From NCBI GenBank assembly GCA_037367355.1, contig CM074698.1, positions 434,001-498,000 on the forward strand: a stretch of 64,000 nt of DNA. Reading direction: 5' to 3'. The notes under the pieces were generated by a model. That model ran no database searches and was not told the origin of the DNA. It saw only the letters and a list, made by a program, of their open reading frames with translations. Source of the DNA: Neoscytalidium dimidiatum (lineage: Eukaryota > Ascomycota > Dothideomycetes > Botryosphaeriales > Botryosphaeriaceae). Of the stretch, positions 5,972 to 25,400 are shown one piece after another (the stretch's first letter is position 1; the number at the start of each line of letters is the position of its first letter). A program made the position numbers and the translations under genes.

Positions 5972-6399
5972 ATGAAGCTATTTTATATTATCATCTTTCT
6001 TACTTCTTCATTCGCGGCACCAACTGGTAAAGAAGACGATCAGAGAGAGATTAATGGGAAAGATCTTACGGCCCGAAGCTTTTGGTCAGAGCTTAAGTGT
6101 TTTGGGGTTGGATGGGGTTGTACCGTGTCTGTAAGTACAAAAGCTGAACCTAACAGAATCATACTCACTCGTCCAGGCTGGTCTTGGATGCGCAGATCAT
6201 AATAACTGTAATCAGTGTTGGAAGTGTGGTGTAAGTAAATTATGATTCCTTTGCATGAAGACATGCTGACTGTGTGCAGCTCGTATGTGAATCCTTTCCG
6301 TATATCGTCAAACTTGTTATTGATAGAAAAGTGCTTCGTTGGACACAACCCCTGCGACGACTAAGGGAAAGAATGGTGTTTGGTAGAGGAGGATTTTGA
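5972..6399 (+). CDS. Small secreted cysteine-rich protein (effector-like)
   Basis: Proposed exons 5972-6130, 6177-6230 and 6280-6399. Both introns start GTAAGT, are 46 and 49 bases long and keep frame, giving 110 residues. The N-terminus MKLFYIIIFLTSSFAAPTG is a clear signal peptide with a likely cut after the Ala-rich end. The mature part contains CFGVGWGC and, across the first splice, GCADHNNCNQCWKCG, so cysteines are dense within about 30 residues. The third exon is the weak part. A different splice at the second intron would place the ending CFVGHNPCDD in frame, which adds cysteines and may be the real end. Family unknown; the call rests on leader, size and Cys content. It sits alone between the HET loci and the catabolic cluster. 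Confidence 0.55.
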
Positions 6400-6704: not shown

Positions 6705-8448
6705 TCAGATCTCCTTAACATCGTTGTTCTTTTTCCCGAATTCTTGATCGATCCGCTCCACGCTTCCCGACTCCTGTGATTCAATAACTGTGACAAGTGC
6801 CCTCTGCTTATTCGCCTTACGGCGCATTTGCCAAAACGGTCCTTCGAACAGTGCATCCAATTGCTCTAAGCTTAAGCCAGCCGTCTCAGGCACGGCGACG
6901 AAGACGTAAATAAGCGCCACAAAGCACCACCCCGCGAAGAAGAGAAAAGTGCCCCAATTATGCATGCTGGAAAGCATAGAAGGCGTGCCTTTGTTGACGC
7001 CAAAGTAAAAGAGCCAATGGAATGTCTGCGTGAGGGCGCTACCGAAGGAGCGGATGTTGTTGGGCCAGAGTTCAGCACCGAAAACGTAAGGGAGTACGAG
7101 AAGCCCTGGGATGAAGATTAGCCTCTGCGTCATTTCATTGTGATCATTGTGCGCTCACCGACTGCATATCCAAAGCCATGGATATAGATGGCAGCAATGG
7201 CAGCCTCGGAGGATCCTGGTGCTACTGAAGCAGCTTGCTTGTACTTGAGGAATACACCGATATAGATATCGGAGATCATCTGCACAATGATACCTACGAA
7301 CAACGACTTGCGACGGCCAAGAGCGTCGACAAAGAAGAAGGATGCGATGAGCGTGTAAAAGAATTTGGCCATGGAGTACATGCCCGTCAAGAACATTGAC
7401 CGGTCAGTGCTTCCACCCTGGCCGATCATGGTGAGGATAGGAACGAGATAGCTCGTTACGGAGTTGGCCCCAGACAATTGCGCGAGGATGTAACAAAGGC
7501 AGGACTGTTGCACACGGCGAAGATTCGCAGGTACAAGGAACGTCTCTCTGAGAACGGCTTTCATGCTACTTCCAGCAGCATCTCCATACCTGGCGTGCTC
7601 GCCTTCGATTTGAGCGCGGATGTCTGCAAACTCCGAGGCTACTCGAGGATGGCCCGCTGGAAGTCCGCGGAGCGCAACCAAGGTCTGCAGCGCCTCTTCC
7701 TCTCTGCCCCTTAGCATCAACCAGCGAGGCGACTCGTACATGACGAAGAAACTTGCAACGATGATGATGGCTATAATGATGCAGGGCACGAACCAGACAA
7801 CCTGATACTGTAATGTGCTGCTGGCAATGTGCAGAAAGCTGGCGTAGACAACAAAACAGCTGACCGTCAAGCTGAGCAGCATGACGACACTGAACCAAGT
7901 AGCCAGCAATCCGCGTATCTCGTGTGGTGCAACTTCGACGATTGACATCGGGCCAGTTACCGTTAGAGGGCCGATACCGAGACCTGATATGAAACGAGCT
8001 GTGTATAGTGTGCTGAGATGACCGGAGGAGAAAGTTGCGACGAGTTGACCAACGATCCAGATGGCCATGTACAGGCGCAGAGACCAAAGACGGCCGATGC
8101 GGTCGTTGATGAAGAATGACAGGCCGGATCCCACGCCTGCTGTTAAATAGACGAAGGAGATGAAGTTTGAGATCTGGGACGGGTTCGCTCCAGACGAGAT
8201 GCCGAAGGCGTGTTGGAATCCAGGAAGTGATGGTACAATTGAAGACGAGCCCTGGTCCCATGCTGAAGCAAAATTAGCCAGATGGACGATGTAATTCAGA
8301 CACGAGCGGAAAACGTACTGATTGGTATACCAGACATGGCGTACAATGCCGCGGTCACCAGAAGCCGCCGATTGAAGATAAGTTCACGCGGCGAGCTCTT
8401 GATGGCGCGAACATATTTTGCCAAAGTGGAGTCGGATAGGATGGTCAT
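6705..8448 (-). CDS. MFS sugar-porter family transporter
   Basis: Exons 8448-8319, 8262-7159 and 7105-6705 give 544 residues; introns are 56 and 53 bases (GTACGT..CAG, GTGAGC..CAG) and frame is kept. Family marks in order: SSPRELIFNRRLL in the N-terminal cytosolic part; DRIGRLWSLR after helix 2; ESPRWLMLRGREEEAL before the central loop; AQLSGANSVTSYL in helix 7; DALGRRKSL; and VPETAGLSLEQLDALFEG at the end of the last helix. This is the fungal hexose/quinate-permease type, a proton-coupled plasma-membrane importer. The substrate cannot be read from sequence. It is transcribed divergently from the FAD oxidase, sharing a 557-base promoter region, so it probably imports the cluster's substrate. 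Confidence 0.92.
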
Positions 8449-9005
8449 GTCTGCGGTCCTCGTCCATCTACTCTTGTGAGGTTTGCGGGAGACGGTATCG
8501 ACGCGGAGGGTGGAGAAGAACGACGTGGTCTCCGGGCATCCGGAGATATAGTACTATTTCTCACATATCTTTGTGTATGGCGTTGAGATAACCTTTCTGC
8601 ATCCTTATGAGTAATGGAGGACGCCCATGTGCCTGGAGCAGGGATCGCTGCTGGGTGCACGGCCTATCGCGTCCGGGGAAGGCTGGACTCGGAGGAATCC
8701 GAACCCCGCCATTCGAGAGTCTACCTCGAGCGCCGTCCGAACTTCGGCACATTGGTCTCCTTATCGGCATCTCCATATCTTTCTCCATTCAGTTGCCTGC
8801 AGGATCGGCTTCGCCTCCCGTAGCCTGAGAGTAACATTGCACAGTCCACAATGTTGGGTCTTGTTCTGGACGTCATCTCTTACATGTTTGCTGCGTTTTC
8901 TTTTACTTAACTTTCTTCATTCAAGAAAAGAATAATCCTGGCTCTGTAAGGCAGTGAATCAAAGTCGAAGGAACACTACATCAATCGGATAGCCGCTGCG
9001 GAAAC
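8449..9005. promoter_or_regulatory. Shared divergent promoter, transporter / FAD oxidase
   Basis: This 557-base region separates the two start codons. It holds a perfect inverted repeat at 8531-8544 (TCCG-N6-CGGA). CGG/CCG triplet pairs are what Zn2Cys6 dimers recognise, and a Zn2Cys6 gene lies in the same cluster. The link is inference. Confidence 0.45.
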
Positions 9006-10472
9006 ATGGCACGCGCACCGCCCAGCAAAGACGCACCCATCAACATTGTTGGAGCGGGAATCTTCGGGCTCAGTACAGCTCTCCATCTTGCACGGCGCGG
9101 TTACAAAAATGTCACCATTTTCGATAAACAGCCGTATGACACCACACTCTACTCCTATCTGGACGGTTGCGATGCCGCTTCTGCCGACATGAACAAGATC
9201 ATCCGCTCAGCATATGGCAGCCAGGTTGAGTACCAAGAGCTCACTTTCGAAGCAATCGAGGAATGGAAAGCATGGAATGATGAGCTCTCAAAGGGTGTGA
9301 ATCTACCCCCGGGTTTGTCGACCAAAGACCGAGTGTTCTACAACACTGGGAATCTGAACATGATAGACGGGAACGAGCTTCCTGAATTCGAACTGGCAAC
9401 GATAAGGTCAATGGAAGAGTGTGGACACAAAGACACACAGCTTGTTACCACCAACCCGCACCATGTTGCCATCGCGGATTCGAAAGGTTTGGCTGCCGCA
9501 ATGGATCCCTTCGAACGGTCTAGGCGAGGCAAATCGAACACCGGAGTCCTGGACTCGACTGGAGGAGTTGCAGTGGCAGACAGGGCATGCAGGTTTGCGC
9601 TTCACAAGGCTCGCACGTACGGTGCACGAACCATCTTCGGCCCAACAAGAGGTGCGCTCAGCAACTTCATGGCATCCCCGACGGGCGAAACCACTGGGAT
9701 CGTTACCAAGGACGGCAAAAAGTATCCTGCTGTCCTCACAATCATGGCCTGTGGCGGCTGGACACCAGGCCTCGTTCCAGCACTTGACGGTCTCTGTGAA
9801 GCAACTGCTGGCTCAGTCGTTCTGTTCAAGATACCGCGAGGGTCAAAGCTGTGGGACCGCTTCGCCGCAGAAAGATTCCCCACGTGGATGTACAAGATGA
9901 GAGATGGGGCAGAAGGGGGTCTGTACGGCTTCGCACGCGATGAGCGAGGGTACCTGAAGATCGGATACCGAGGCATCAAATATACCAATCCAACTACTCA
10001 ACATGACGGAAAAGAAAGAAGCACGCCGATCACGAGATGGAGCGAGGGCGAGAAGCTCACACAGATACCAAAACAAGCCATGAAAGTCATTCGCGACTTC
10101 GTGGACGAGTATCTGCCTGAGTTACGAGATGAGGACATCGATGTGGTAACGACCCGTGTTTGCTGGTATACAGATTCGTTCGATAACCATCTAGTCATCG
10201 ACTACGTCCCGGGACAGAAGAATTTGATGGTAGCTACCGGCGGCAGTGGGCATGCGTTCAAGTATCTGCCCATTATCGGCAATTGGGTCGTTGACATCAT
10301 CGAAGGCATTGGAATGGAGAGGCCTCAGGTGGAGGCCTGGAAATGGAGAGCGCTTGATGGAAGGAAGCCAGTCAACATATTGATGGAGGGTAAGCAAGGA
10401 GCGAGGGCTCTGGGGAACGTGCCCTTAATCAACGATGCAGATTTGAAAGGAGAAGTTACGGCGAGGCTTTGA
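9006..10472 (+). CDS. FAD-dependent amine oxidase (fructosyl-amino acid / saccharopine oxidase-like), peroxisomal
   Basis: A single exon of 488 residues. The N-terminal Rossmann motif is VGAGIFG (15-21) with Asp40 ending the second strand. ASADMNKIIRSAYG (58-71) is the flavin-side motif typical of fungal fructosyl-amino acid and saccharopine/pipecolate oxidases. RVCWYTDS (384-391) carries Cys386 at the place where this family binds FAD covalently, and GGSGHAFKYLP (412-422) closes the flavin site. The protein ends in ARL, a plausible PTS1 tail, which fits an H2O2-producing enzyme kept in peroxisomes. The likely reaction is oxidation of a secondary amine or N-substituted amino acid, giving an imine, then an oxo acid. 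The exact substrate is unknown. Neighbours suggest lysine- or amino-acid-derived compounds (inference). Confidence 0.88.
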   Translation: MARAPPSKDAPINIVGAGIFGLSTALHLARRGYKNVTIFDKQPYDTTLYSYLDGCDAASADMNKIIRSAYGSQVEYQELTFEAIEEWKAWNDELSKGVNLPPGLSTKDRVFYNTGNLNMIDGNELPEFELATIRSMEECGHKDTQLVTTNPHHVAIADSKGLAAAMDPFERSRRGKSNTGVLDSTGGVAVADRACRFALHKARTYGARTIFGPTRGALSNFMASPTGETTGIVTKDGKKYPAVLTIMACGGWTPGLVPALDGLCEATAGSVVLFKIPRGSKLWDRFAAERFPTWMYKMRDGAEGGLYGFARDERGYLKIGYRGIKYTNPTTQHDGKERSTPITRWSEGEKLTQIPKQAMKVIRDFVDEYLPELRDEDIDVVTTRVCWYTDSFDNHLVIDYVPGQKNLMVATGGSGHAFKYLPIIGNWVVDIIEGIGMERPQVEAWKWRALDGRKPVNILMEGKQGARALGNVPLINDADLKGEVTARL

Positions 10473-10902
10473 ATGGACATACTGGTCGTGGAACTAAGTC
10501 TGAAAGAACTTTATTTAAATGAACACTACCCATCACTCCATGTCACATTTATGAGTCCCAGGGCACAATACTTAAGTTGCTGAGTCTCAGGGTGGTATAT
10601 TTAAGTTTTCTGAAGTCATCTAGGCCATGATATGACGATTGCCATCAAGACGCACTTGGTTGAGGCAGAAGGTATACCACAACGAACCGCCAAGGAGCTG
10701 TATGCGTGCGGATCACGTACTGAAGTTATGACCAACTATAGCCAAATTATTTGAAATTAAGACAAAAGACGACTAACAGGAATACTTTTTGCACTAGATA
10801 GGTAGCCGTTGTACCAGCCGTAATCACTGAAGTTCATTGAGTAATGTTGGGCGTCATGCGCCCACAACCGTAGCATAGTGTATGCATTTACCTACTATAC
10901 AC
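10473..10902. other. Intergenic between convergent oxidase and dehydrogenase genes
   Basis: About 430 bases between two 3' ends. There is a near-repeat of 'gggcacaatacttaagttgctgagtc' type segments around 10560-10610 (an ACTTAAGTT-like core followed by GCTGAGTC or TTCTGAAGTC). Nothing coding. Confidence 0.35.
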
Positions 10903-12011
10903 CTACCGCTTCTCCAAGCGGTCGAGATTTACTGGGGAATTTGCCCTCCCTGTCTCGAAATACGCCCTGATATTCTCAAAACACTCTCTTTCCGCTTTTT
11001 GATACGCCACATCTGTCAACCCTCCCAAGTGCGGTTGCAAAATCACATTTTCTTGCTCAAAGAACCAAGGGTCGACATTCGGCTCGTTGCATAAGACATC
11101 CAGACCCGATCGAGCGACTTTTCCGTTCTGAAGAGCAACCTTCAGCGCTGCTTCGTCAATCACGGCGCCGCGAGCAGTGTTGATCAGGAACGTTCCATCT
11201 TTCATCGCATTGAACTCAGCCGTGCTGATCAGATTTGTAGTCTTCTCATTCAGCGGGCAGTTAAGAGAAACGATGTCCGAGGACGAAAGGAGCTCATGGA
11301 GTGAGCTGCAATACGTGGCGTTGTACTCCTCCTCCTGAGCAGCAGGCAGTTGGCGGCGGTTGTGGTACCTGATCTTCAGATTGAACACCGCAGCCTTCCT
11401 CGCAAGATGCTGTCTCAAGCCGTCAGTCTCCACACTCACACCCACGGATCAGCCTTCCCTCATCCGCCAAAGCTCACCTTGCCAATCGCGCCCATGCCCA
11501 CAATCCCCAGCGTCAACCCCGCCGGATCCCTCGCCGGGATCAGCCCACCATCCGGCCCGCCCCTCCACCTCCCCGCCCTCGCGCTCTGCTCGGCGCGGCT
11601 CGTGTTCCGCAGCGTGGCCAGCAGCAGGAAGACGGCCATGTCGGCCGTCGCCTCGGCGACCGCGTCCACCGAGTTGCAGAAGACGATGCCCTCGCGGCTC
11701 ATCCAGCCCACGTCGAACTCGTTGTACCCGGCGCTCGCGGACGCGACGATCCTGCAGCCCGGCACCAGGGCGGAGAGGAGGCCCGCGTCGAACGGCTCGT
11801 AGGGCGGCGTGCCCATGCGGATGATGAAGGCGTCGACGGGCCCCCTTGTCGATACCAGCTCCGGGAGCTGGGCGATCGTCTCGGCGCGGTCGTTGGCGTG
11901 CAGGACGGAGAATTGGAACTTTTGGGAGAAGGAGGCGAGGTAGTCGTCGCCGGCGTATTTGGGGGTGCCGAGGCACACGACGTGCGGCTTTCGCTCTGCG
12001 GTGGAGCCCAT
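10903..12011 (-). CDS. D-isomer-specific 2-hydroxyacid dehydrogenase
   Basis: Exons 12011-11478 and 11409-10903 (68-base intron, GTGAGC..CAG) give 346 residues, the usual family length. The NAD(P)-binding glycine motif is VGMGAIG (171-177), with the intron just after it. Catalytic residues are in place: Arg258 in NTARGAVIDE, Glu287 in LDVLCNEP and His305 in LQPHLGG. The family reduces 2-oxo acids such as glyoxylate, hydroxypyruvate or longer oxo acids to D-2-hydroxy acids, or does the reverse. The start MGSTAER was chosen over an upstream in-frame Met at 12143 because homologous proteins begin close to the first strand (HVVCLGTP). It is divergent from the racemase-like gene. The first exon is much more GC-rich than the second. 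Confidence 0.9.
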
Positions 12012-12616
12012 TGTGCTGCGGTGGGATTGAGCTGGAGCTGGACAGTCGCTTTGGTGCGATGTAGGCGGCAGGATAGCTGAGACGCGCCTCGAATTCGTTG
12101 CGGAGGGAATAAAAAGGATATTGAAGTTACAATGACTTGCCACGTGATTGAGGACGTGTTAGCTATAGCGGGATGATTGTGGTAATACTGGAAGCGACCG
12201 GGTTTGCAAGAAGGGAATGCCGCACGGGAAGTTACGAGAGACGGCCTTGGGCACAAGACGTTATCTTGATATTGTTTTGGACAATATGCATCTTCAAGTC
12301 CGAATCCGGACCTGTAGATCCAACGGGGTGGAGCTTTAGGATTCTCCCGAGCTTCAAAGGTGGGGTTGACGCGGCTGCAGGGACCATCTTCCCGCAAGCT
12401 CGGATTCTCCCGAGCGTCCTTTATCACGCGACAGCACGACATGCGAGCCCTGGACATGAGGTGATTGAGTTCTCCCAACAAGAGGGGGAGAAGATGTTGC
12501 GAGTTTTCAGGAAGCAGGCAGTTAACACTGAGAATTGCTGCCCAGAAACCTCTCTCTTGCCAATACCCTTTCAGCCTGTGTTGTTCATCAATTAGACAAA
12601 TTTTTGATCATCCACG
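12012..12616. promoter_or_regulatory. Shared divergent promoter, dehydrogenase / racemase-like gene
   Basis: A 605-base region. A 14-base word (GGATTCTCCCGAGC) occurs at 12339 and again at 12402, 63 bases apart. The second copy forms the inverted repeat CTCGGATTCTCCCGAG (12399-12414), a CGG-N6-CCG pair of the Zn2Cys6 type. TCCG-N4-CGGA lies at 12299-12310. Confidence 0.5.
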
Positions 12617-13345
12617 ATGTCATCCTCAGACCTCCCACCTCTTGGTTTCCTCGCTGTGGAAGTCAATATTCACAGGCCACCGGGCGATCCATACAATCCC
12701 CGCACATGGCCCTTCCCTCTGATTCACGAACTCGTCCCCGGCTCTCGAGAAAGTCAGATAGTCTCAAAGGAGGCCTACGACGCCGAATTCATCAACCGCT
12801 TCGTCGATTCTGGAAAGAACCTGGCCAAGAAGGGCTGCGTCGGCATCATCACTAGCTGTGGCTTTCTGGCGCTGGCGCAGAGACAGTTGAGCGAACGAAT
12901 TGGTATTCCCATCTCGACGAGTGCGTTGGTGCAGATTCCAAGCGTACGAGCATTTCTGGGTCCAGAGAAGATAATTGGAGTTTTGACGTATGACGATGAG
13001 CGGCTCGGTGAGCGGCATCTGCGAGAACTGGGCGTAGATCCTGCGACGATCCGGATTCTTGGATTACCCGCAACTGGCCACACGCGGAAGGTGATACAGG
13101 ACGGGATCAAATATGATAGCACGGAGATGGAGCAGGAGATGGTTGATTCGGCGGTAAGGCTTGTAGAGGGTATCAAGGAAGAGGGAAAGGAAGTTGGCGC
13201 CTTGGTGTTGGAGTGCACGCAGATGCCACCGTATGCAGTTGCCATTCAAGAGAAAGTAGGTGTTCCTGTGTACGATGTATACACGATGGGTTTGTGGTTT
13301 TATTCGGGTTTGGTGAGGAAGACTTCCGTAGCGTGGATATCGTAG
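12617..13345 (+). CDS. Asp/Glu/hydantoin racemase superfamily protein
   Basis: A single exon of 242 residues. The protein shows the two-cysteine layout of the superfamily: GIITSCGFLAL with Cys81 and ALVLECTQMPPYA with Cys200, each at the end of a strand in one of two pseudo-symmetric halves. Members use the Cys pair as acid and base to racemise Asp, Glu or hydantoins, or to isomerise or cleave small acids such as maleate. Length fits the cytosolic racemase/decarboxylase group. The N-terminus (EVNIHRPPGDPYNPRTWPFP) and LECTQMPPY resemble a fungal and bacterial subgroup of unknown substrate. Its place in a cluster with a D-hydroxyacid dehydrogenase and an aldolase suggests a role in processing chiral acids (inference). 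Confidence 0.82.
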   Translation: MSSSDLPPLGFLAVEVNIHRPPGDPYNPRTWPFPLIHELVPGSRESQIVSKEAYDAEFINRFVDSGKNLAKKGCVGIITSCGFLALAQRQLSERIGIPISTSALVQIPSVRAFLGPEKIIGVLTYDDERLGERHLRELGVDPATIRILGLPATGHTRKVIQDGIKYDSTEMEQEMVDSAVRLVEGIKEEGKEVGALVLECTQMPPYAVAIQEKVGVPVYDVYTMGLWFYSGLVRKTSVAWIS

Positions 13346-13687
13346 ACGCATAGTAGTACCAAGGCAAATATCCTACCGGAGGTGTTGCCAAATCGATGAC
13401 CCTCATGCACCCTTAATTTACCAATTGCCCACGCATGCTTCCTGCTTCTCGTACTAAATATATTCTTTGTCCGAAATGAGTGAAAGAAAGATTTCAGCGC
13501 TCTCCGGTCGAGGATGAGCTGCTTGTCGGTCATGTGGAAGTCTTACTCTCTGGGTAGAAGCAAGCGTATGCCTATTTAGTTCGCAATCAAGCCTTCTCCC
13601 GTTGGACTGAGTACCTATAGATCTCTGACAACAGGAAAAAATGTCTGTATAAATAAATCATAGATATTTCAACCGGTCTTGCCCCAC
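13346..13687. other. Intergenic between convergent racemase-like and aldolase genes
   Basis: About 340 bases, two 3' regions. No gene or repeat seen. Confidence 0.4.
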
Positions 13688-14749
13688 TCAGACCAAGAAA
13701 TCCCCTTTCGTCTCCTTCAAAATCATCTGGTACTCAGGCTCGAATTGCATGTACATAACCTCCGGGCTACCCGTATTCCTCTTCGTATACTCCGCCTCCT
13801 CGTCGCTGACGATCGTCTTCTTCAACTGGCTCCCATCGGGCGCCACAGCAGCCTCAGTCAGCAACTGGCAGCGGCACGCCCTCTCCAACGCAATGAAGAA
13901 CGCCGCGGCTTCCGCGATCGTCCCGCCACACGTCAGAATGCCATGATTCTGCAAGATGACGTTCTTCTTGGTCGGCCCGAGCGCGTCCGCCAGCCTCGCG
14001 CCCTCCTCCTTGGCGAAGACCACGCCGCCGAAGTTCGCGTACACGGCCAGGTCGTCGTAGAACATGCAGCTGTCCTGGTTCAGCATGTCGAGCGGGCGGC
14101 CGAAGTTCGACCACGCGCGCGCGTACGGGCTGTGCAGGTGGCAGGCGGCGTGGACGTCCGGCCGGCGCGCGTGGACCGCCGCGTGGATGATGAAGCCCGC
14201 CGTGTTGACCAGCCTGTCCGCGCCGCCGACCCGGCTGCCCGCCGCGTCGACGCGGACCATGTCCGAGACGGTCAGCAGGCCGAAGTGCACGCCGTACGGG
14301 TTGATCCAGAAGGTGTCCGGCTGGACGGGGTCTGGAAGGGATTAAATGTTTGTGCGAGAGTTTCGATGGATAGGTGTGCTTAACGGACCTCGGAGGCTGA
14401 TATGCCCGCTTCCTCCGTCCGCGAAGCCGAGCTTGGCGAAGATACGGAAGGCCCCGGCCATTTGCTCGAGTTGCCATTGGCGTTGCGCTTCTTTCGTTGC
14501 TGGCCACGGGATGTGGTATCGGCTACGGCCGCCGCCTGATGTGCCGGCATCCCTGTTCAGGATTGAAGAATTGCCTTTGGCTTGCACTCCAGGTGAAGCT
14601 TCTGTCATCGTGGCGGTGGACGACATGGTGCGTGGATTGACGAAGCTGCGAGAGTTGGACATAGAGAGAACATCGGCAGAGGGTCTAAAGAATAGCTGGA
14701 GTGGCGCTGACTCGGTGCTCCCCGCACTTAGCATCCATGCATGAGCCAT
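13688..14749 (-). CDS. Class II aldolase/adducin-family protein
   Basis: Exons 14749-14389 and 14331-13688 with a 57-base intron (GTCCGT..CAG) give up to 334 residues. The zinc site is visible: CHLHSPYARAWS (HxH) in the middle and NHGILTCGGTIAEAAAFF later, both hallmarks of the class II aldolase fold, preceded by GSGHISLR and FWINPYGVHFG. Members cleave or epimerise short sugar phosphates, or decarboxylate small acids, using the metal to hold an enolate. Two later Met codons (14662, 14629) could be the true start, since the first about 40 residues are of low conservation character. It is divergent from the DUF1338 gene with a 260-base shared promoter that contains CCG-N6-CGG at 14759-14770. 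Confidence 0.88.
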
Positions 14750-14758
14750 CGGCTTCCC

Positions 14759-14770
14759 CCGAGCTCACGG
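14759..14770. promoter_or_regulatory. CCG-N6-CGG everted triplet pair (candidate regulator site)
   Basis: CCGAGCTCACGG lies in the 260-base region between the aldolase and DUF1338 starts. It has the same triplet arrangement and spacing as the site at 8531-8544. Short motifs like this can occur by chance, so support comes only from recurrence in the cluster's divergent promoters. Confidence 0.3.
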
Positions 14771-15009
14771 AAGCAGTATCCGAACCCTTTTCCGATCACT
14801 CCGACCGGGGTCTCTCTTTAGATGCCCTCGAATAGACAATCTTCACGCAAACAGCCGGTTAGTTCCGGGATGATATCATGCCGTCCGACTTCAAGAAGGA
14901 TGGCTTGAGTAGAGGCTTGGATCGAGAACTTAAGCACACACCTTCAATGCGTTCCCGTGTTTAAGGAAACGACAATACTATAGAGGCAGCCTCTGCAATC
15001 GAACCGGAA

Positions 15010-16443
15010 ATGGAGGATCCGCACGACTATGTCGACACCGATGAACTTCGAACCACCTTTGCGGTGGCTATGTCAGCCATGTACAAAAAGGAAGTGCCCT
15101 TGTACGGCACGCTGATCGATATCGTGCAGGAGGTCAACAACGAAACACTCGTGAACTCCAACGACCCAAAAGTCACAGCTCTTCGCGCCGGCAGCGTTAC
15201 TTCCGAGAGACTCGATCTGGAGAGACACGGTGCGATTCGGCTTGGAACTCCATATGAGCTTCAGACGGTGCGCCGCATATTCGCCATCATCGGCCTCCAC
15301 CCAGTCGGCTATTACGATCTATCTCCTGCCGGGCTGCCGATGCATGCAACATGTTTCCGGCCAACGACCGACGAAGCGCTGAAGAGAAATCCGTTTCGAG
15401 TGTTCACGACCTTGCTGAGACCTGGTCTGCTCAGAGAACCCGGATCAAAGGATGTCGCGTTGGCTTTGCTGCAAAAGCGCAGCATCTTCAGCCCTGAGCT
15501 TCTCAAGCTTCTTGACGTTGCGGAAGCTCAAGGTCTGCGCCTTGGGCCAGATCGAGCTCAATCATTTGTTTCCGAGGCGATGAAGACTTTTGGGTGGCGG
15601 CCTGTGGCAGCAGCGTCAAAAGGCGTGTACGAGGAGTTAAGAGAGGAGCACCCGATCCTGGCTGATATTGCATGCTTCCAGAGCGCACACATCAATCATC
15701 TCACCCCCCGGACTCTCGATATTGGGGCATGCCAAGAAAGGATGAAGGCGAATGGACTGGCCGTGAAAGAGCGGATTGAAGGTCCACCACTCAGGGGCTG
15801 TCCCATTCTCCTGCGACAGACGAGTTTCTTGGCGCTCGAAGAGTCCATCAGATTCCCAGAGGGCGATGGAACACTGGCGCAAGGATCCCACAAAGCTCGG
15901 TTCGGCGAGATCGAAGAAAGTGGTGCTGCAGTGACCCCCAAAGGAAGAGCACTCTACGATCGCCTCATGACTAAAGTCAGGGACAAAATCTTGCGTGCGG
16001 GGACTTCTTATGAGCCCTGCGAACAAGATCGGATTCTGTCAGAAATCTTCGCGGAATATCCCGATACGTGGGAGGCTCTTCGAAAAGAGCATTTGGTGTA
16101 CTTCACATACCGGTGTACCAAGGGTGCGGAGGCGTGGGGTGGTGCCTCCACTGAGCTTTCGCGAGAAGATCTGCTTGCAAGGGGGGTCTTGGAAGCCGTA
16201 CCAATAACGTACGAGGATTTTCTCCCCTTGTCTGCCGCTGGCATCTTCCAGTCCAATCTTGGAAAGCGACGAGACTCTTCCGTGGAAATTCATGTCGCAT
16301 TCGCTGATCAATCAGGTTTAGAGAAGGCGCTGGGGTGCGCTGTAAAGGACTCGGATAGAGCGTACGCTGAGGCACAGGAAGCAAGTTTGAGAAGCTGTGC
16401 GAGGGTCCTTGGTATTGATGAGGCACGTCTTCTTTTCTCATGA
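15010..16443 (+). CDS. DUF1338 protein, 2-oxoadipate dioxygenase/decarboxylase (HglS/YdcJ) family
   Basis: A single exon of 477 residues, the usual full length. The motif ERHGAIRLGT (71-80, His73, Arg77) matches the N-terminal metal His and substrate Arg of the family. SAHINHLTPRTLDI holds the second His (probably His230), and RFGEIEESGAAVTPKG holds the acidic ligand (probably Glu300). Characterised members use Fe(II) and O2 to turn 2-oxoadipate into D-2-hydroxyglutarate in lysine breakdown. Residue roles are assigned by motif, not structure. The gene is divergent from the aldolase and ends 86 bases from the convergent Zn2Cys6 gene. With the amine oxidase, it suggests a route from an aminoadipate-like amine through an oxo acid to D-2-hydroxyglutarate (inference). 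Confidence 0.85.
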   Translation: MEDPHDYVDTDELRTTFAVAMSAMYKKEVPLYGTLIDIVQEVNNETLVNSNDPKVTALRAGSVTSERLDLERHGAIRLGTPYELQTVRRIFAIIGLHPVGYYDLSPAGLPMHATCFRPTTDEALKRNPFRVFTTLLRPGLLREPGSKDVALALLQKRSIFSPELLKLLDVAEAQGLRLGPDRAQSFVSEAMKTFGWRPVAAASKGVYEELREEHPILADIACFQSAHINHLTPRTLDIGACQERMKANGLAVKERIEGPPLRGCPILLRQTSFLALEESIRFPEGDGTLAQGSHKARFGEIEESGAAVTPKGRALYDRLMTKVRDKILRAGTSYEPCEQDRILSEIFAEYPDTWEALRKEHLVYFTYRCTKGAEAWGGASTELSREDLLARGVLEAVPITYEDFLPLSAAGIFQSNLGKRRDSSVEIHVAFADQSGLEKALGCAVKDSDRAYAEAQEASLRSCARVLGIDEARLLFS

Positions 16444-16529
16444 AGTTCTGTCTTTAGTATGTAGCCTGCAGCCTTGGATTGAATGAAGACAAACCGGCAT
16501 TAAGCATGGAACCGATTCGAGTACGGCAC

Positions 16530-18764
16530 CTAGCCCGTGAAATCACGCAAATCATCGAATCCGAATTCAGGTTGCTGGAAGTCTCTCATCCCCTGTAATA
16601 GCTCGTTGAACAGCCACTCAGCCTCATGAGGTACTGACAGATCGTCCAGACCCATGATCCAATCTTGAGATGAAGCAGCGTGAATTCCTTGCTGTTGTGT
16701 GCCGCCTGCGTCTGACCGGTGCAGATCGAAATCTGAAGTTTTGCTTCTTTCGTTGCAGACCATGTTGATTGTCCTTTCAGATAAAGTCTCGAATGCGTCT
16801 CGGTAGGTGGTGGCCTGGCTCCAACGCTCTGCAATGATGACAAGCACAGTGTTGCAGGCCATACACGTGCTGATGACATCGGACTGCCTAGAATTTTGGC
16901 GAACCTTTTCAGATTTCCACAAGCAGTAGAGATAAGTCATTCCGCCAACAAAAAGTATGTGAAGGGAACCCCAGGTGAATTGGATGGTCGGGCTCTGGTA
17001 AAGCTTCCTGTAAAGTAAACACATTTCTCGAGCCCGATATGCGCATTCTTCAAACGCTTTCTCTACGCCCTTCTCTTCCCCTGGTGGGGAGGAAATTATT
17101 ATGTGGTGCCGGTAGAGGAGGAGTATTGAGTGGTCGTATGCGATCTGAAACCACGCTTGTGAAGCGAAAACCGACAGTGGAGAAGAGCCGGGATTGTCAA
17201 TGGGGTCGGGTATCGCAGCATGCCACTCCTCAAGTTCTTGACGTAAACGATCAACAACTACCTGTCCTGTCATGTTGCGGGGCGGTATATCTTTAGTGGC
17301 AGTCTGGTATAGATTGGATGCAAACTTGGACCACAGCCGACGGAGTTTGATGACATGAATTGCTCCGGTCATGTACGTTGGTTGATCGGCAGAGGACGAA
17401 CGAGGCTCCTTCCTTAGACCATCTCTGGCAATATACTCATCCTCGAGGTCCAGCGGCATCTCCACATCTATAGCATCGTCTGGAATGCCTACAGGTCGTC
17501 CAAGGATACACGCGGCCACCCGATCAATGTCGTAGGCTACCCAGAAGCACCTACGTGACATTTCAGCGGCGAGAACGTCCGTATATTTGCGATACTTCGA
17601 TACGCTTCTGTGGTAGCCGAGCTCGATGCAATGCCGGATTGCCATGCCGGAGATCTTCCACAGACTGACACCGACTGGTGACCTTATCGAGTAGACCGCA
17701 CAGCAAAGGATACTCTGTATTGACTCAAGTCCATCAAGGTCAAGAACTGTCGCTTGGTGGTCAAGCGCCATGACATAGTAAGCCTCAGCTGCATCGCGAT
17801 GTGCGGGGCCGAGGGCGAGAGAGCCAATTGCGTACACCATCAAGACAAAGAACAAGGCTAGATCTCCAGCTTCAGAGAGAGCGTTAGCCGCATTAGCTCT
17901 GAGGCAAGCTTGCTCCCAGGCGAGAAAAGTGGGCTTATGGAGAAATGGATACTGCGGATGAATGTTCTTGAAATACGCTTGGGTCAGGGTCGCGGCCAAA
18001 GCTGAGGACGGGAATGACACCGACACGGTCCGCTGTATCTCCGGTCCGTGTGTTTCAGGGACTGTGCCACTGTACTGAGAGCTTCCATGGCGTTTTGGTA
18101 AGCCCATAGTTGTGCTCACGATGCGCGAAAACGACACGGCGCAGGACGAGCCGAAGTAGTGCGGCTCGCGGCCCGCCGCACTCAGGCATAGAACCGCAAC
18201 ATCGGTAGTTAGGTCGTCAACTTGCTCATCCTCAACATCTCTTGTCGCTACTGGAAACGCATCTTGGAAGGCGGGTGATTCGGTCCCGGTTTGGGGAGGT
18301 AGAGAGCCGTGAAAGATAGGTGGTGGTCTTGCACTTGATGCTTGGCCAAGATTTTGAGAGAAGCGCGGCTGACCGGATCCATCGAAGTGATCCGATGCCA
18401 CGTCAGGTCGCGTCTCCTGCAGTAGGGCCTCAAGATAAGCGACACGAGTCTCGAGCGACTTCAGGTAGTCTCTCGGCCTGTGCAGTCCTGTCGCAGGGTC
18501 CTCGACTAAGCAATCTGGCCTCGATCAACGCCGTATTCACTGTATAGTCGTTTTAACAAAATTACCTCGTCCGGTCCGAACGCAATTTTGACATTTTGGG
18601 GCCTGGCCATCGCACTGGGCTTGGGTCAGCCTGTGCGCCGCCTCGGGTTACGTTGAAGAAGACTGATAAAACACCTTTAGCTTCTTGCTTTTGCAATGGA
18701 TGCAAGCGAGCATCGTCCGCTCACCAAGACGTGCCCGCTTTGGGCCGGGGCGATCCATACTCAT
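16530..18764 (-). CDS. Zn2Cys6 transcription factor with fungal-specific middle domain
   Basis: Exons 18764-18675, 18614-18566 and 18514-16530 give 707 residues; introns of 60 and 51 bases split the zinc cluster. Assembled, it reads ACIHCKSKKLK, then CDGQAPKCQNC, then VRTGRDCLVED: six cysteines in Gal4-type spacing, preceded by basic residues. YLKSLETRVAYLEALL follows as the dimerisation coil. The fungal_trans domain is recognised from YFKNIHPQYPFLHKPTF, SLWKISGMAIRHCIELGYHR and CFWVAYDIDRVAACILGRPVGIPD. The open frame alone would start at a GTG near 18401 and lack the DNA-binding domain; the spliced start adds it. It lies at the edge of the metabolic genes and is the likely cluster activator, binding CGG/CCG pairs (inference). 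Confidence 0.9.
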
Positions 18765-19489: not shown

Positions 19490-22400
19490 TCACCCCACCG
19501 TCGCGACAGTAACAAAGCTCCCACCAGGCCCATACGTCCCGACAACCTGCTTGTACCCGGGAATGCATGCGCTCGGTTCGGGCACGAACGAGGTGATGAG
19601 GCCGGCCGGGCGGGTGCTGGTAAGGGTCGCAAGCGTAGTGGTTGGGGGAAGGGACGGGAGGGGAATGACTGGGATGGAGAGAGGAGCGGAAGGCAGCGAT
19701 GGCGACGACGGAGCTGCGGATGGGGAGCTGGGGGCCTGGGCGGAGACGGGTGGTTGGGCGGAAGGCGCAGATGGGGGCGCTGCCGAGGGCGCCGATGGCA
19801 CGACTGGAGGCGCTGCGGAAGGCGCGGACGGGGCAGCGGGCGCTGGTGAGGAGGGCGCGGGCGGGGCGATGGGAACCGGTACGGAGGACGGTGAAGATGA
19901 TGCTTGAGGCGAGGTAGAAGGGGAGGTAGGCGAGATGGAGGTTGTAGATGGTAAAAGCGGGGCTGGCGGTGAAGGGGGGACGGGTGCCGCGATGGAGGGC
20001 GCAAGCGGCGGTGGTGCGGATGGAAGAGAAGACGCTGTTGTAGATGAAACGGCCGCTGTGGCTGTCGCGGTAGGGATATTAACGAGCACAACGGTCGTGG
20101 AGACCAGCTGGCTGACCATCGTGCCAACCACGCTCGTGAATAGGAGTGACCCGGATGTCTGGACGATTGTGAGGACATTTCCTGGTGGGGGATTCGAGGA
20201 GGGTGAGGCCGCGGGCGGGGACGCGAGAGGAATAATGGGACCGGGAACCGAGGGCGGGACTGCCCCCGAGGGACTAGCTGTCGGCGGGCCTGTACCCTCA
20301 GTCGATGCAACAAGCGCAGAAAGAGCCCCAGATGCGGAAGTAGGAGTTCCGATAATGACTGTCGGAGGATCTGGGCTTGTCGGAAAGAGGGTGAAAACAG
20401 AGATAGTGCTTCCAGGAATACCCGCAGTACGAGTAGTCATGGATACTGTGACGGGAGCGGTAATGCTTGTAGGGGTCAGATGGTATACGGTCGGCAGGCC
20501 GATAACCTGTCTTCTCAGTTCAAGCACCGGATCCAGAGTAATTACGAATTGCCTTACACCAGGTGAGTAACCAGCTGTGCGGACAACTTGTAGTCCAGAG
20601 GGTAGAGGTGGCTGGGTGATGGTGGGAAATTCCGCAGAGATGCTTATTCCTGCTCCAAGCGACGCTTCAAGAGTAGCTCCGAGAGTTACGTCAATGCCAT
20701 TTGGGTGTGATGTGGGCAAGTTGGTTGATGGCGTGCTCAAAGATGGCATCGAAATGGAGGGAAGCACGGCGGATAAGCTGATTGATGGTAGGCTGGCAGA
20801 TGGAAGTGAGACACTGGGTAATGAGATTGACGGAACTGTGGTAAGCAAGCTTATTGGTGGTAAGCTTGCAGATGGCAACGAGATACTTGGGACTGATATG
20901 GATGGTACATAGGTGGCCACGCTGATACTAAAGCTTGAAAATGTTGGAAAAGCTGTAGGAAAGGTAAGTAGAGTGGTCGGCGCGGACAAAGAGAGTATCA
21001 ACAAGCTGGGCACCGACAGGTTCGGGAGCGAGACGCTCGGAACGGAAATAGGCGGCACCAACAAACTTGAAGTCGACAGTCCTTGGATTGAAACATTCGG
21101 TATTGAAAAGCTTGGGACTGGTAGAGTAGGTATCGACAGGCTGGGAATAGAAAGGCCGGGGCTGCTCAGTCTTGGCAAACTCGGACTTGGTGCATTTAAG
21201 GTAGGTACGTTCAAGCTCGAAAGGCTCAGGTTGGGCTCACTTAAGCTAGGGGCGCTGAGACCTGGAATACTCAAGCTTGGGACATTTAAGCTTGGAACGT
21301 TTAAGCTCGGGATACTGAGACTCGGAATGTTGAGGCTGGGAATGCTGAGAGTGGGAATGCTCAAGCTCGCGATACTAGGGATGCTGAGACTCGGAATGCT
21401 TAAGCTGGGTATGCTGAGACTTGGAATACTAAGGCTTGGCACATCCAGAGACGGGAGGCTCGGATTAGGAACGGAGAGACTTGGCACGGAAAGGCTCGGG
21501 ATCGCTAAGCTTGGGATGGGCAGACTGGGAGCCGAGAAACTGGGTATAGAGAGACTCGGAATGGGTAAACTGATGATTGACAAGCTTGGGATTTGGAGCG
21601 TCGGAATAGCTACGCTGGGAACCGAAAGCGTAGGCACGGAAAGGCTCAGAGTTGGCAGGCTAGACAACAAGAGCGTTGGGACCGATACTGAAGGCAGCTC
21701 CAGACTGAGGATAGAAAGCGACGGCAGGCTGGGAGCTGATATAGATAAGGATGATATTCCAGGACTCGGAACCGGGATACTCGGGAGCGCCAAGCTGGTG
21801 ATACTGAAGGGCGGAATAGATAAAGTTGGTAATTCGATGCTTGGGATGCCTAGAGTAGTCGGTATGCTCAATGGTGGGAGTGAAAGAGTAGGAAGTGGCA
21901 GGGACGGTACACTTATTGTCGGTAGCCCTGGAGTACTGGGAGGTGGGACCGAAAATTGCGGAGGCTGTACCGAAAGAGCAGTTGGGGAAAGTGAGTTTTG
22001 CGGTACAATCGGCGGCGGTCCGCTTTCAGCTCCATATGGGACTGGGTCTGATATTAAAGCCGTCAATGGGATCCCAAAACCCAGCGACGGGACATTGGGC
22101 GATTGGACTGAGATCGAGACGGCCGGGGGAGATAGGGAAGGGAGCGTGACAGAAGGCCCACCTGGAAGAAGGCTGTTTGTCGGGACAATTGGAGCGGGGC
22201 CGCTTTGAGCGCCATTGGGGATCGGATCGGGTATCAACGTTGTCAATGGTATCTCGATGTCAAGGGATGGTGGACTGACTGGAGGAACTGTAATCGAGAT
22301 GGACGGCAGGAATGCTGAGGGCAAACTCAAAGCGACAGAGGATAGGGCAAGCGACGGAAGGCTCAGCGAAGGCGCGCTCAGAGAAGGGACGCTTAGCGAT

Positions 22401-25400
22401 GGAAGGCTCAGCGACGGCAAACTGAGTGATTGAATACTCAATGATGGTAAGTTGAAGGCCAAAACACTTGAAGAAGGCACGCTTAACGGCGGAAAACTTG
22501 GCGAAGGCACACCGAGAGACTGAATGCTTATAGGGGGTGCGTTGAGGGATGGCACGCTCAATGACGGAACACTTAGAGGTGGTATGCTGAGTGAAGGTAC
22601 ACTAAGAAACGGAGTACTCAGTGAGGGTGCAGAGACCGAAGGAAGCGCGTTCGACAGAGAAAAGCCTGGAAGAATGAGTGATGGCACACTCAGAGAGGGT
22701 ACACTCATCGAGGGCAGGCTGAGCGACGGAAGCAAGAACGAAGGAAGTTCCGTTGGGATAGATAAGCTTGGCGCGCTGATTGGTGGTAGACTGAGTGAAG
22801 GGATACTCAGAGACGGTATGCTCAAGGAAGGAATGCCGAGAGCCGGTAGAGACAACGAAGGAACGTTCATTGACACAGAGAAGCTCGGCAGGGTGAGTGA
22901 CGGCGCACTCAACAATGGTAGACTGAGCGAAGGTAGGGGGAGTGAAGGGATCCCCGTCAATAGAGACACACTTGGCGCACTGAGTGCAGGGACACTGAGT
23001 GAAGGGACATTCAGTGAAGGAACGCTGAGTGAAGGAACGCTCAGAATTGGCACACTCGGGGATGGCAAGCTCAACGGCGGCAGGTTCGGCGATGGCACCG
23101 ATAGCGAAGGGACATCAGTCGGTAGAGACAAGCTCGGAACGCCAACCGACAACGCGCTCAAAGATGGAATGCTGAGAGACGGCAAAACCAGCGACGGAGA
23201 ACTCAACGAAGGTAGACTCGCACTGAGCAACGAGAGCGAAGGGAAAGTCGTCGGGACCGACAGCGACAATCGCGGCAAACTCAGGGATCCCGCCAAAGTC
23301 GGCAGACCTCCCAACTCACCACCACTACTCGCAGATCCCACATTGCCACCACCAGGTAGTCCCGTCGCCAGCAAGCCCGTCGGGAATGCGATGCTCAGTG
23401 TAACGCCAACTCCCAACGTCGGCAGCACCGCTGGTGGAATTAGCACGGCAGCGATCTTGCTAGGGTCGACAACGAGGTCGGTAGACTGGGTATAGCACTG
23501 GCAGTTGGTCTGGCTGGTGAGATCGAGGTCGATGGCGGCACCAGCGTAACCGAGAAGCACGCAGGTGCCGAGACAGAGGCCGATGTCGTTGTCGCTGCCG
23601 CTGCTGAAGAGCTGCGGAATGGCCAGGCGCAGGCCGATGCTAATGCCGCAGCGGATCTGGAAGGTCGCGCTGGCGACAGTGACAAGGCTGCCGTCGTCGT
23701 GTGGACAGTGGAAGAGCGGAGGCGTGGTGATTGGAGCGCCCGGTGCGGTCGCGGAGGGGGCTGCGAAGGATGAAGGGCCGCCAGAGGGAACAGGTATGAT
23801 TGCAGGGGCGGATGCACCGGGTAACAGGGCTGAAGGGAGGACCGACGATGGAATTGAGATCGCAGGCGTCTGGAGTGAGAGCGGAATGACGGATGGGAGA
23901 GATACTGCTGAACTCTGAAGTGAGAAAGGAACAGAGGGCAGGCTGACCGATGGCAAGGAAATCTCAGGAATCTGAAGCGGGAGGGAATTGGAAGGCAAGG
24001 GCGCCGAAGGGAGGGAAAGTGCGAGACTAGGAACTGCGAGAGAAGTAGACGGTAGAATCGCCGATGGGATGGACAGTATAGGAGTTTGGATTGATAGAGG
24101 CGGGGATGAGACGCCTGTTGATGGAAGCAAGAGCCCTGGGAGCGAAAGGCTTGCGGATGGGATGGAGAGAGCCGGGGGCGAAAGACTTGCCGATGGGATG
24201 GAGAGAGCCGGGAGCGAAAGACTTGCCGATGGAATCGATACAGCCAAAGACGAGACGGCTGCAGATGGAAGCGAAATGAACGGAGGTGACAGACTTGCTG
24301 ATGAAATTGATAGTGCAAGAGATGGAATGGAGAGAGATCCGGAAGGCAATGCAATTGAGGGCACTGAGAGCGATGCCCCAGGAATTGAGATGCTGAGTGC
24401 TGAGACCAAGATGGATGAGGGAAGAGCTCCTAAACCAGAGGACAGGACCAGAGTGGAAGGTATTGAGACACTAAGGATCTGTGGAAAACTCAATCCTGCT
24501 GCGGAGGAACTAACAGCTGGTGGGCTTCTGACCGCTGTCGAAGCTCCCGCAGCTGGAGAGGATACAGCACCGGATGATAGAGCACTCAGAGAAGGAGCCG
24601 CAGCGGAGGACAGCAGGTTTGCGGATGAAATTGAAGCGGAGAAAGCGGGAGGCGCGATGCTTATGCTGACGCCTGCTCCAACAGATGCTTGAACTGATAT
24701 ACCAGCGGAAGCACTAACAGCTATTAGAGGCTGAGGAGCGGACAGACTTGTGGCGACGATTGAACTCGACAGTGACGACGTTGGGCGGATTGTTGAAAGG
24801 CTTGCAGAAGACGGAAGAACTTGTGGTAGGTTTAATTGCTTCTTGTCGAGAGTCGGGGAAGAAGAGAGCGGGAGCGCCACGAGCGTCTTGATTGATACGC
24901 TTGGTAAAGCCGATGCCAATGCACCAGGTAGTTTAGAAATGGATGGATGATCGATACAATTGTCCATGACACCAAGTGCAGTTGCAGCGCATGAAATAAC
25001 CCCAGCAGTCGTCATATCAGCGGCCTGAAGGCAGTTCTGCACAGTGTCCAGTCTGTGAATCTGTTACTTGTCTCCTGTCAACAGCTTGCGAAATCGGAAC
25101 ATGCTTACGTTTCGGAGTAACAGGCGGTGAAAGCTGCCCTCGCTGGGTCGCATTTGGTGAGATCCAGCGGGTTGTTGGATGTCTGACATGTCTGAAGAGT
25201 TGTGAACCTCCGTTGGCAAGTTGCTGTAAGGATGCATTGAAAGCCAGTGCCAAGACGGAGAACGCATCCGCTGTCGGCTGTGACGCACGTAGCACTGATC
25301 GACTGCTCAAAAACACTCGTTAGTAGAAGGGAAAGAGAAAGAAAGGAGTTTAGAAGCGGAATACGCGTACGGCTAGCAAATTTCCGAGACTCCCGACCGG

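Follow-up and report, generated by a model that had tools for sequence, protein, structure and literature searches.

Do seven adjacent genes of the fungus Neoscytalidium dimidiatum encode one catabolic pathway under a common regulator, and if so, what compound would that pathway degrade? The genes lie at positions 6705 to 18764 of a 64,000-nucleotide stretch of contig CM074698.1 (positions 434,001 to 498,000 of the forward strand, referred to here as the window) and encode a transporter (A), a flavin oxidase (B), a dehydrogenase (C), a racemase-like protein (D), a class II aldolase-fold protein (E), a DUF1338 protein (F) and a regulator (G). We conclude with high confidence that they form a real, co-regulated and conserved cluster, and consider amino-acid catabolism its likely function. 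A role for 2-oxoadipate as a pathway intermediate is slightly favoured, and a similarly guarded preference, a little past even, applies to the complete proposal that the cluster is one co-regulated pathway for the uptake and degradation of an amino acid whose 2-oxo acid either is 2-oxoadipate or is converted to it. The grouping of these genes goes beyond chance because a 15-mer is common to their three divergent promoters and because B, D and F are repeatedly found linked elsewhere among fungi.

Gene models of the cluster

A sequence-only reading had described the locus as three head-to-head gene pairs next to a Zn2Cys6 regulator, and our gene models, with introns placed by eye from GT..AG borders and the reading frame, confirmed this arrangement with the same outer ends, 6705 and 18764. 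Seven intact reading frames fill this interval exactly, as the divergent pairs A/B, C/D and E/F (ATG-to-ATG spacings of 557, 605 and 347 bp, respectively) and G, which lies on the minus strand beyond the third pair. Every one of the seven falls in a Pfam family that fits the label given to it earlier. The genes, promoters and predicted control sites are as follows.

6705-8448, minus strand: gene A, sugar-porter-type major facilitator superfamily transporter (544 aa; introns 8318-8263 and 7158-7106; Pfam Sugar_tr, 1e-67)
8449-9005, unstranded: divergent promoter A/B
8688-8702, minus strand: predicted regulator site TCGGATTCCTCCGAG (CGG-N6-CCG) in the A/B promoter
9006-10472, plus strand: gene B, FAD amino-acid oxidase of the sarcosine/pipecolate/fructosyl-amine oxidase family (one exon, 488 aa)
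10903-12011, minus strand: gene C, NAD-type D-2-hydroxyacid dehydrogenase (352 aa; one intron, 11477-11428)
12012-12616, unstranded: divergent promoter C/D
12400-12414, plus strand: predicted regulator site TCGGATTCTCCCGAG in the C/D promoter, with a one-mismatch near copy at 12337-12351
12617-13345, plus strand: gene D, member of the Asp/Glu/hydantoin-racemase superfamily (PRK07475; one exon, 242 aa)
13688-14662, minus strand: gene E, class II aldolase-fold protein of the PRK06208/TqaM type (305 aa; one intron, 14388-14332)
14663-15009, unstranded: divergent promoter E/F, with three CGG-N6-CCG sites
14749-14763, plus strand: predicted regulator site TCGGCTTCCCCCGAG in the E/F promoter
15010-16443, plus strand: gene F, predicted HglS (PF07063, DUF1338; one exon, 477 aa)
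16530-18764, minus strand: gene G, regulator with Zn2Cys6 and Fungal_trans domains (707 aa; introns 18674-18615 and 18565-18515)

A shared element in the three divergent promoters

The DNA-binding domain of G is nearest, among solved structures, to that of Ppr1 (1pyi, 4.3e-12), followed by Gal4 (7e-6), and its Zn2Cys6 motif is accompanied by a Ppr1-like linker. The triplets bound by Ppr1 are separated by six nucleotides (N6). Ppr1 recognises paired CGG triplets, with the linker setting their spacing, according to the sections of the two sources drawn on here (PMC5559640, PMC4245848).

When 48 arrangements of paired CGG triplets were scanned in the three divergent promoters, CGG-N6-CCG was found in five copies, with at least one per promoter. 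Five copies occurred in 0 of 4000 shuffles, and presence in all three promoters in 5 of 4000. Everted N6 and direct N15 CGG pairs are also present once per divergent promoter, giving three copies versus five for CGG-N6-CCG. In a family-wise control, 668 of 4000 shuffles had at least one of the 48 arrangements present in every promoter, and 49 of 4000 did so when at least five copies were required as well, so the triplet scan taken by itself is moderate evidence of shared control and the weight is carried by the 15-mer test and the genome counts.

The extended form TCGG-N6-CCGA occurs four times in the window, and three of these copies are distributed one to each divergent promoter. Genome-wide there are 604 such sites, or one per 72 kb, and at this density the chance of finding one in each of the three promoters is ~3e-7 (0 of 4000 shuffles). 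In a test free of any CGG requirement, exactly one 15-mer of the C/D promoter matched both other promoters with two or fewer mismatches, and this 15-mer was the predicted site (0 of 1500 shuffles). Oriented alignment of the three sites, TCGGATTCCTCCGAG, TCGGATTCTCCCGAG and TCGGCTTCCCCCGAG, gave the consensus TCGGMTTCYYCCGAG, which has four matches in the 43.76-Mb genome, three of them inside the cluster, compared to two for a reversed-pattern control; since TCGGMTTCYYCCGAG was built from the three cluster sites, the informative number is the single other genome match. These results suggest that G pairs with the TCGG-N6-CCGA sites as candidate binding sites. The co-regulation proposed earlier has thereby gained a candidate control element in all three divergent promoters, and co-expression of the cluster genes is presumed, as before.

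The sole TCGGMTTCYYCCGAG match outside the cluster (G000:C5:2211812-2211826) may mark a further target of G. Near G000:C5:2211812, neither an aldehyde dehydrogenase (11 of 69 candidates scored) nor a class I/II aminotransferase (9 of 33 scored) was found.

B, D and F in the genomes of other fungi

A search of 5.8 billion proteins for relatives of B, D and F gave lists of the 120 best matches to each; linkage of A, C, E and G in the same fungi is at most inferred from gaps between locus tags. Contig sharing, judged from an equal size of the longest contig together with the species name, was counted over 120 F, 120 B and 92 of 120 D rows, leaving out 28 D rows (P0212-P0238 and P0240) that are yeasts, unnamed contigs and Clonostachys rhizophaga, which is absent from the F and B lists. 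In other Ascomycota, among the matches listed, B and F occur together on a contig in 17 of the 21 named species that both lists contain; the corresponding figures are 10 of 17 for F with D and 16 of 27 for B with D. All three genes lie on one contig in Clonostachys chloroleuca, Thelonectria olida, Melanomma pulvis-pyrius, Colletotrichum phormii, Periconia macrospinosa and Boeremia exigua. We take the linked species to belong to several ascomycete classes.

Distances between locus tags add detail to this pattern. In Boeremia, Didymosphaeria, Neocucurbitaria, Capronia and Fusarium nematophilum the tags of F and D differ by two, so that one gene would fit between them, which matches the place of E in the window. 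B and F are separated by two tags in Boeremia, three in Paraconiothyrium and five in Thyridium (four genes in the window), and B and D by three in Pestalotiopsis fici (two in the window). Spacing varies, and in Boeremia gene order does too, while linkage persists.

These counts bear on the simplest alternative, that the genes are adjacent without a joint pathway, their linkage incidental and the motif that of a general regulator. Divergent gene pairs are common in fungi, and in some relatives a single contig carries no more than a subset of the genes, but the B/D/F linkage recurs with altered spacing across ascomycete classes and three of the four genome matches to the 15-mer consensus fall in the cluster's own three promoters. 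We regard incidental linkage as very improbable.

A gene model from Aspergillus oleicola (P0184) fuses a D homologue to a fungal regulator domain, consistent with a regulator neighbouring D in that species.

A predicted 2-oxoadipate oxygenase and its partner enzymes

F scores 486.9 bits against PF07063 (cut-off 25). Its residues H73, H230 and E300 align with H70, H226 and E294 of Pseudomonas putida HglS (6w1g), which we take to be the metal triad in that numbering. R77 aligns with the substrate-binding Arg74 of HglS, and the HGAIR motif is present in 117 of the best 120 F homologues listed. In the sections of PMC7286885 used here, the HglS metal triad is described as HHE and DUF1338 proteins carrying the specificity Arg are predicted to act on 2-oxoadipate. 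The DUF1338 family assignment made earlier stands, and a function can now be attached to it: F is a predicted HglS, a 2-oxoadipate dioxygenase/decarboxylase. No match for F was found in viral contigs.

B carries a Pfam DAO domain (109 bits) and ends in ARL, a C-terminus resembling peroxisomal targeting signal type 1 (PTS1); strict PTS1 ends are present in 76 of the best 120 B homologues listed. A DAO domain together with a PTS1 signal is what a peroxisomal sarcosine/pipecolate-type oxidase would have. The closest named relatives among the matches listed are from Macrophomina (84% identity) and Neofusicoccum (83%), and the source annotations of some homologues read sarcosine/L-pipecolate or L-saccharopine oxidase. 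Within the 43.76-Mb genome D and F gave one match each, E has several paralogues, and B has one closer paralogue at 45% identity (G000:C1:846324-847661). The core CGGMTTCYYCCG is matched inside the frame of this paralogue, which may be chance.

D retains the Asp/Glu racemase superfamily fold and both cysteines, C81 and C200. Its family, PRK07475, is named 'hypothetical protein' in NCBIfam, and its closest named relative among the matches listed is from Macrophomina (85% identity). An Alma1-type dimethylsulfoniopropionate lyase was considered for D from the source name of one homologue (P0133) and was not adopted. D homologues are also present at 43-48% identity in yeasts, including Candida boidinii, Wickerhamomyces, Lachancea and Pichia (P0210, P0213, P0214, P0233 and others), a hint of a further function for the racemase family beyond the cluster.

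E keeps histidines at FucA positions 92, 94 and 155, which we take to be metal-binding in FucA. The position of Glu73, presumably the catalytic residue of FucA-type aldolases, is occupied by Gly in E, as in the TqaM fragment; two bacterial sequences (L082 and L083) also have Gly there, so Gly alone is not diagnostic. Compared with solved structures, E scores 219.2 bits against TqaM, 163 against NovR and ~41 against FucA, and 4xxf, an entry named fuculose-1-phosphate aldolase, ties with TqaM at 219.1 bits. Of the earlier 'aldolase' label the class II fold holds, but the catalytic Glu73 is absent and TqaM is as close as any solved structure. The case for a true aldolase is weakened, not closed, by the missing Glu73, as 4xxf ties TqaM. 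We assign E tentatively, and at rather less than even confidence, as a TqaM-like decarboxylase, a confidence lowered because of the 4xxf tie. TqaM acts on an (R)-2-hydroxy acid in 2-aminoisobutyrate synthesis, according to the part of PMC11880133 consulted.

A proposed pathway

Combining these assignments, A would import the amino acid, D would interconvert its two hands, and B would oxidise it, probably in the peroxisome, to a 2-oxo acid or imine plus H2O2. F would convert 2-oxoadipate and O2 to D-2-hydroxyglutarate and CO2, and C would convert the D-2-hydroxy acid (D-2-hydroxyglutarate) to 2-oxoglutarate. Less surely, E would remove CO2 oxidatively from an (R)-2-hydroxy acid to give succinate. 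G would switch on A-F via the TCGG-N6-CCGA site in each divergent promoter. A single substrate may be common to all six enzymes/transporter, and candidates include 2-aminoadipate of either hand, pipecolate or another lysine derivative. Both the substrate and the reactions proposed here are predictions from sequence.

A more specific version would be coenzyme A-free, one-carbon-at-a-time shortening of an amino dicarboxylic acid by two O2-dependent oxygenases under one regulator. D and B would produce 2-oxoadipate, HglS would convert it to D-2-hydroxyglutarate and E would yield succinate, with C forming a 2-oxoglutarate branch. This version is distinctly unlikely, and was rated lower because of the 4xxf tie.

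Bacterial neighbourhoods of D and HglS relatives

Bacterial relatives of D were collected from 80 loci, 57 of them titled Bradyrhizobium, with neighbours counted within 10 kb. HglS was found in 46 of 398 bacterial genomes, and 40 loci from 40 genomes were compared, mostly over ±8 kb and some ended by the contig. Neighbours were clustered by BLAST and one member per family was run in Pfam or NCBIfam; LysR proteins were named by eye.

A DadA-like DAO flavin oxidase neighbours the D relatives in 75 of the 80 loci. A thiamine-diphosphate enzyme (PRK08199) is nearby in 67 loci and a D-2-hydroxyacid dehydrogenase in 33; 41 loci have a family-3, amino-acid-type solute-binding protein and 22 an aminotransferase. 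Outside Bradyrhizobium, the oxidase is present in 15 of 19 loci (of 23, with L017, L022, L035 and L079 left out). The recurrent neighbours in the 40 HglS loci are LysR-like proteins (20), aldehyde dehydrogenases (13), aminotransferases (13) and DAO oxidases (9). Both sets of neighbourhoods point to amino-acid breakdown.

In many alphaproteobacteria the PRK07475 racemases (L002-L081) neighbour a DadA-like oxidase, PRK08199 and parts of an amino-acid ABC transporter, and these loci possibly represent an uncharacterised amino-acid pathway. The idea that the fungal cluster is a copied bacterial operon was rejected, as no bacterial locus examined holds the fungal set.

Weighing the alternatives

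A lysine/pipecolate pathway like that of P. putida AmaA-AmaB-HglS, which we take to be the gene names of its D-lysine/pipecolate catabolism, would make B an L-pipecolate (or saccharopine) oxidase, place the aldehyde dehydrogenase and aminotransferase steps elsewhere in the genome and leave C, D and E in side roles. The source annotations of some B homologues agree with this, as do the DAO oxidases, aldehyde dehydrogenases and aminotransferases counted around bacterial HglS. Such a pathway is nonetheless unlikely here: the cluster contains neither an aldehyde dehydrogenase nor an aminotransferase, the racemase and E are given no clear role despite the closeness of D and F in five species, and B fails to match the HglS-adjacent bacterial DAO oxidases at 1e-5.

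A second alternative is a pathway for a sugar-amine adduct (Amadori or opine-like), in which A would import the adduct, B would deglycate it and the other enzymes would process the released parts. A is of the sugar-porter type and not an amino-acid permease, its nearest solved structure being STP10 (8e-27), and the nearest solved structures to B, by sequence and by fold, are fructosyl-amine and fructosyl-peptide oxidases. The alignments of B and the presence of HglS, which deglycation would not need, speak against it. R322 of B stands opposite Glu280 in the amadoriase II alignment and is invariant across 40 aligned B sequences, two FPOX alignments show a gap there, and in these three alignments, whose placement differs, no Glu of B is aligned with the sugar-binding Glu of FPOX. 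Glu278 of FPOX is named among the conserved sugar-binding residues in the part of PMC10616090 consulted, and amadoriase II Glu280 and FPOX Glu278 probably correspond. An amadoriase function of B is not favoured, and neither are the glycated amino acids that the sequence-only reading had named among compounds for an expression test; we consider a sugar-amine pathway quite improbable.

Apart from the properties of A and B just described and the 4xxf tie of E, several further observations weigh against our preferred reading, a co-regulated amino-acid pathway through 2-oxoadipate. F scores 548.8 bits against the NCBIfam HglS model NF049974, just under the cut-off of 550. C is nearest to the solved structures of glyoxylate reductase and D-mandelate dehydrogenase, and Foldseek ranks arylmalonate decarboxylase first for D, with no racemase in that place. 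The bacterial pipecolate route needs both of the enzymes, aldehyde dehydrogenase and aminotransferase, that are missing from the seven genes. Homologues of A, B and D number 0 at 1e-5 in the 40 bacterial HglS loci, with one each for E and C, and A, B and E number 0 at 1e-8 in the 80 bacterial D loci, with 2 for F and 33 C-like. The bacterial DAO oxidases belong to another branch, unmatched by B at 1e-8 in the D loci as well as at 1e-5 in the HglS loci.

Regulation and linkage have their own counterexamples. CGG-N6-CCG is not enriched across the 64-kb window (20 copies versus 19.1 expected), and there is no such site in the 500 bp upstream of G. A scattering of the genes in related genomes, which the sequence-only reading had said would refute it, is mostly not seen for B, D and F in other Pezizomycotina, although the paired genes are on separate contigs in 7 of 17 species for F/D, 4 of 21 for B/F and 11 of 27 for B/D, including F. 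nematophilum (B), Aspergillus karnatakaensis and Aspergillus heterothallicus (both D). Paralogues or other strains may account for some of these cases. The best 120 F matches listed include none from a named member of the Botryosphaeriaceae, though B and D from this family are present.

Significance for fungal HglS

Lysine catabolism as the role of fungal HglS is an open question in the sections of PMC7286885 used here, which also report that DUF1338 proteins are widespread in fungi and that nearly all lysine catabolic pathways of fungi still lack a full characterisation. The sequence-only reading had not recognised the gene combination as a described fungal pathway, and in agreement with this, no description of the cluster was found in the literature searched on fungal DUF1338/HglS, lysine-pipecolate clusters and the family combination, a search that covered few subscription papers. 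The cluster places a fungal HglS in a genomic context, together with a regulator, possible partner enzymes and a defined candidate site for binding, and the role of fungal HglS therefore becomes testable. The cluster also gives a starting point for two ill-defined families, the racemases of PRK07475 and those class II 'aldolases' in which the aldolase Glu is missing. If the substrate is pipecolate, a plant immune signal, the cluster would bear on how plant-associated fungi handle plant defence signals, and we speculate that such fungi might use it to consume this one.

Sequences flanking the cluster

To the left of the cluster, 5972-6250 (plus strand) holds a gene, apparently with introns, whose small peptide product looks secreted and contains cysteine; Pfam gave no match for a 71-residue form of it, spliced by eye. 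To the right, 19490-25063 (minus strand) is an open frame of 1857 codons made up largely of SLSIPSLSVP-like repeats, with several 15-base repeat arrays, and it too had no Pfam match.

Comparison with known systems

Of solved DNA-binding domains, that of S. cerevisiae Ppr1 is closest to the one in G. Ppr1 controls pyrimidine genes (it is so named in the PDB listing), whereas the genes predicted to answer to G are A-F. TqaM of tryptoquialanine biosynthesis, jointly with 4xxf, is the top solved relative of E and shares with it the same metal histidines and the same Gly replacing the aldolase Glu, but TqaM is biosynthetic and E is placed among catabolic genes.

At the level of whole pathways, an HglS-type 2-oxoadipate oxygenase is common to the P. 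putida AmaA-AmaB-HglS route and, as predicted, to the cluster, which differs in adding a racemase, a D-2-hydroxyacid dehydrogenase and a TqaM-like protein and in lacking the aldehyde dehydrogenase and aminotransferase. Bacterial PRK07475 neighbourhoods resemble the cluster in having a racemase-family gene near a DAO oxidase (75/80) and a D-2-hydroxyacid dehydrogenase (33/80), whereas amino-acid ABC transporter parts and a thiamine-diphosphate enzyme replace A and E, and HglS is present in 2/80. The nicotinate hxn cluster of Aspergillus nidulans, as described in the part of its literature consulted, likewise has catabolic genes with an adjoining regulator, and differs in its enzymes and in the type of regulator, with a Cys2His2 protein (HxnR) in place of the Zn2Cys6 protein G and its Ppr1-like domain.

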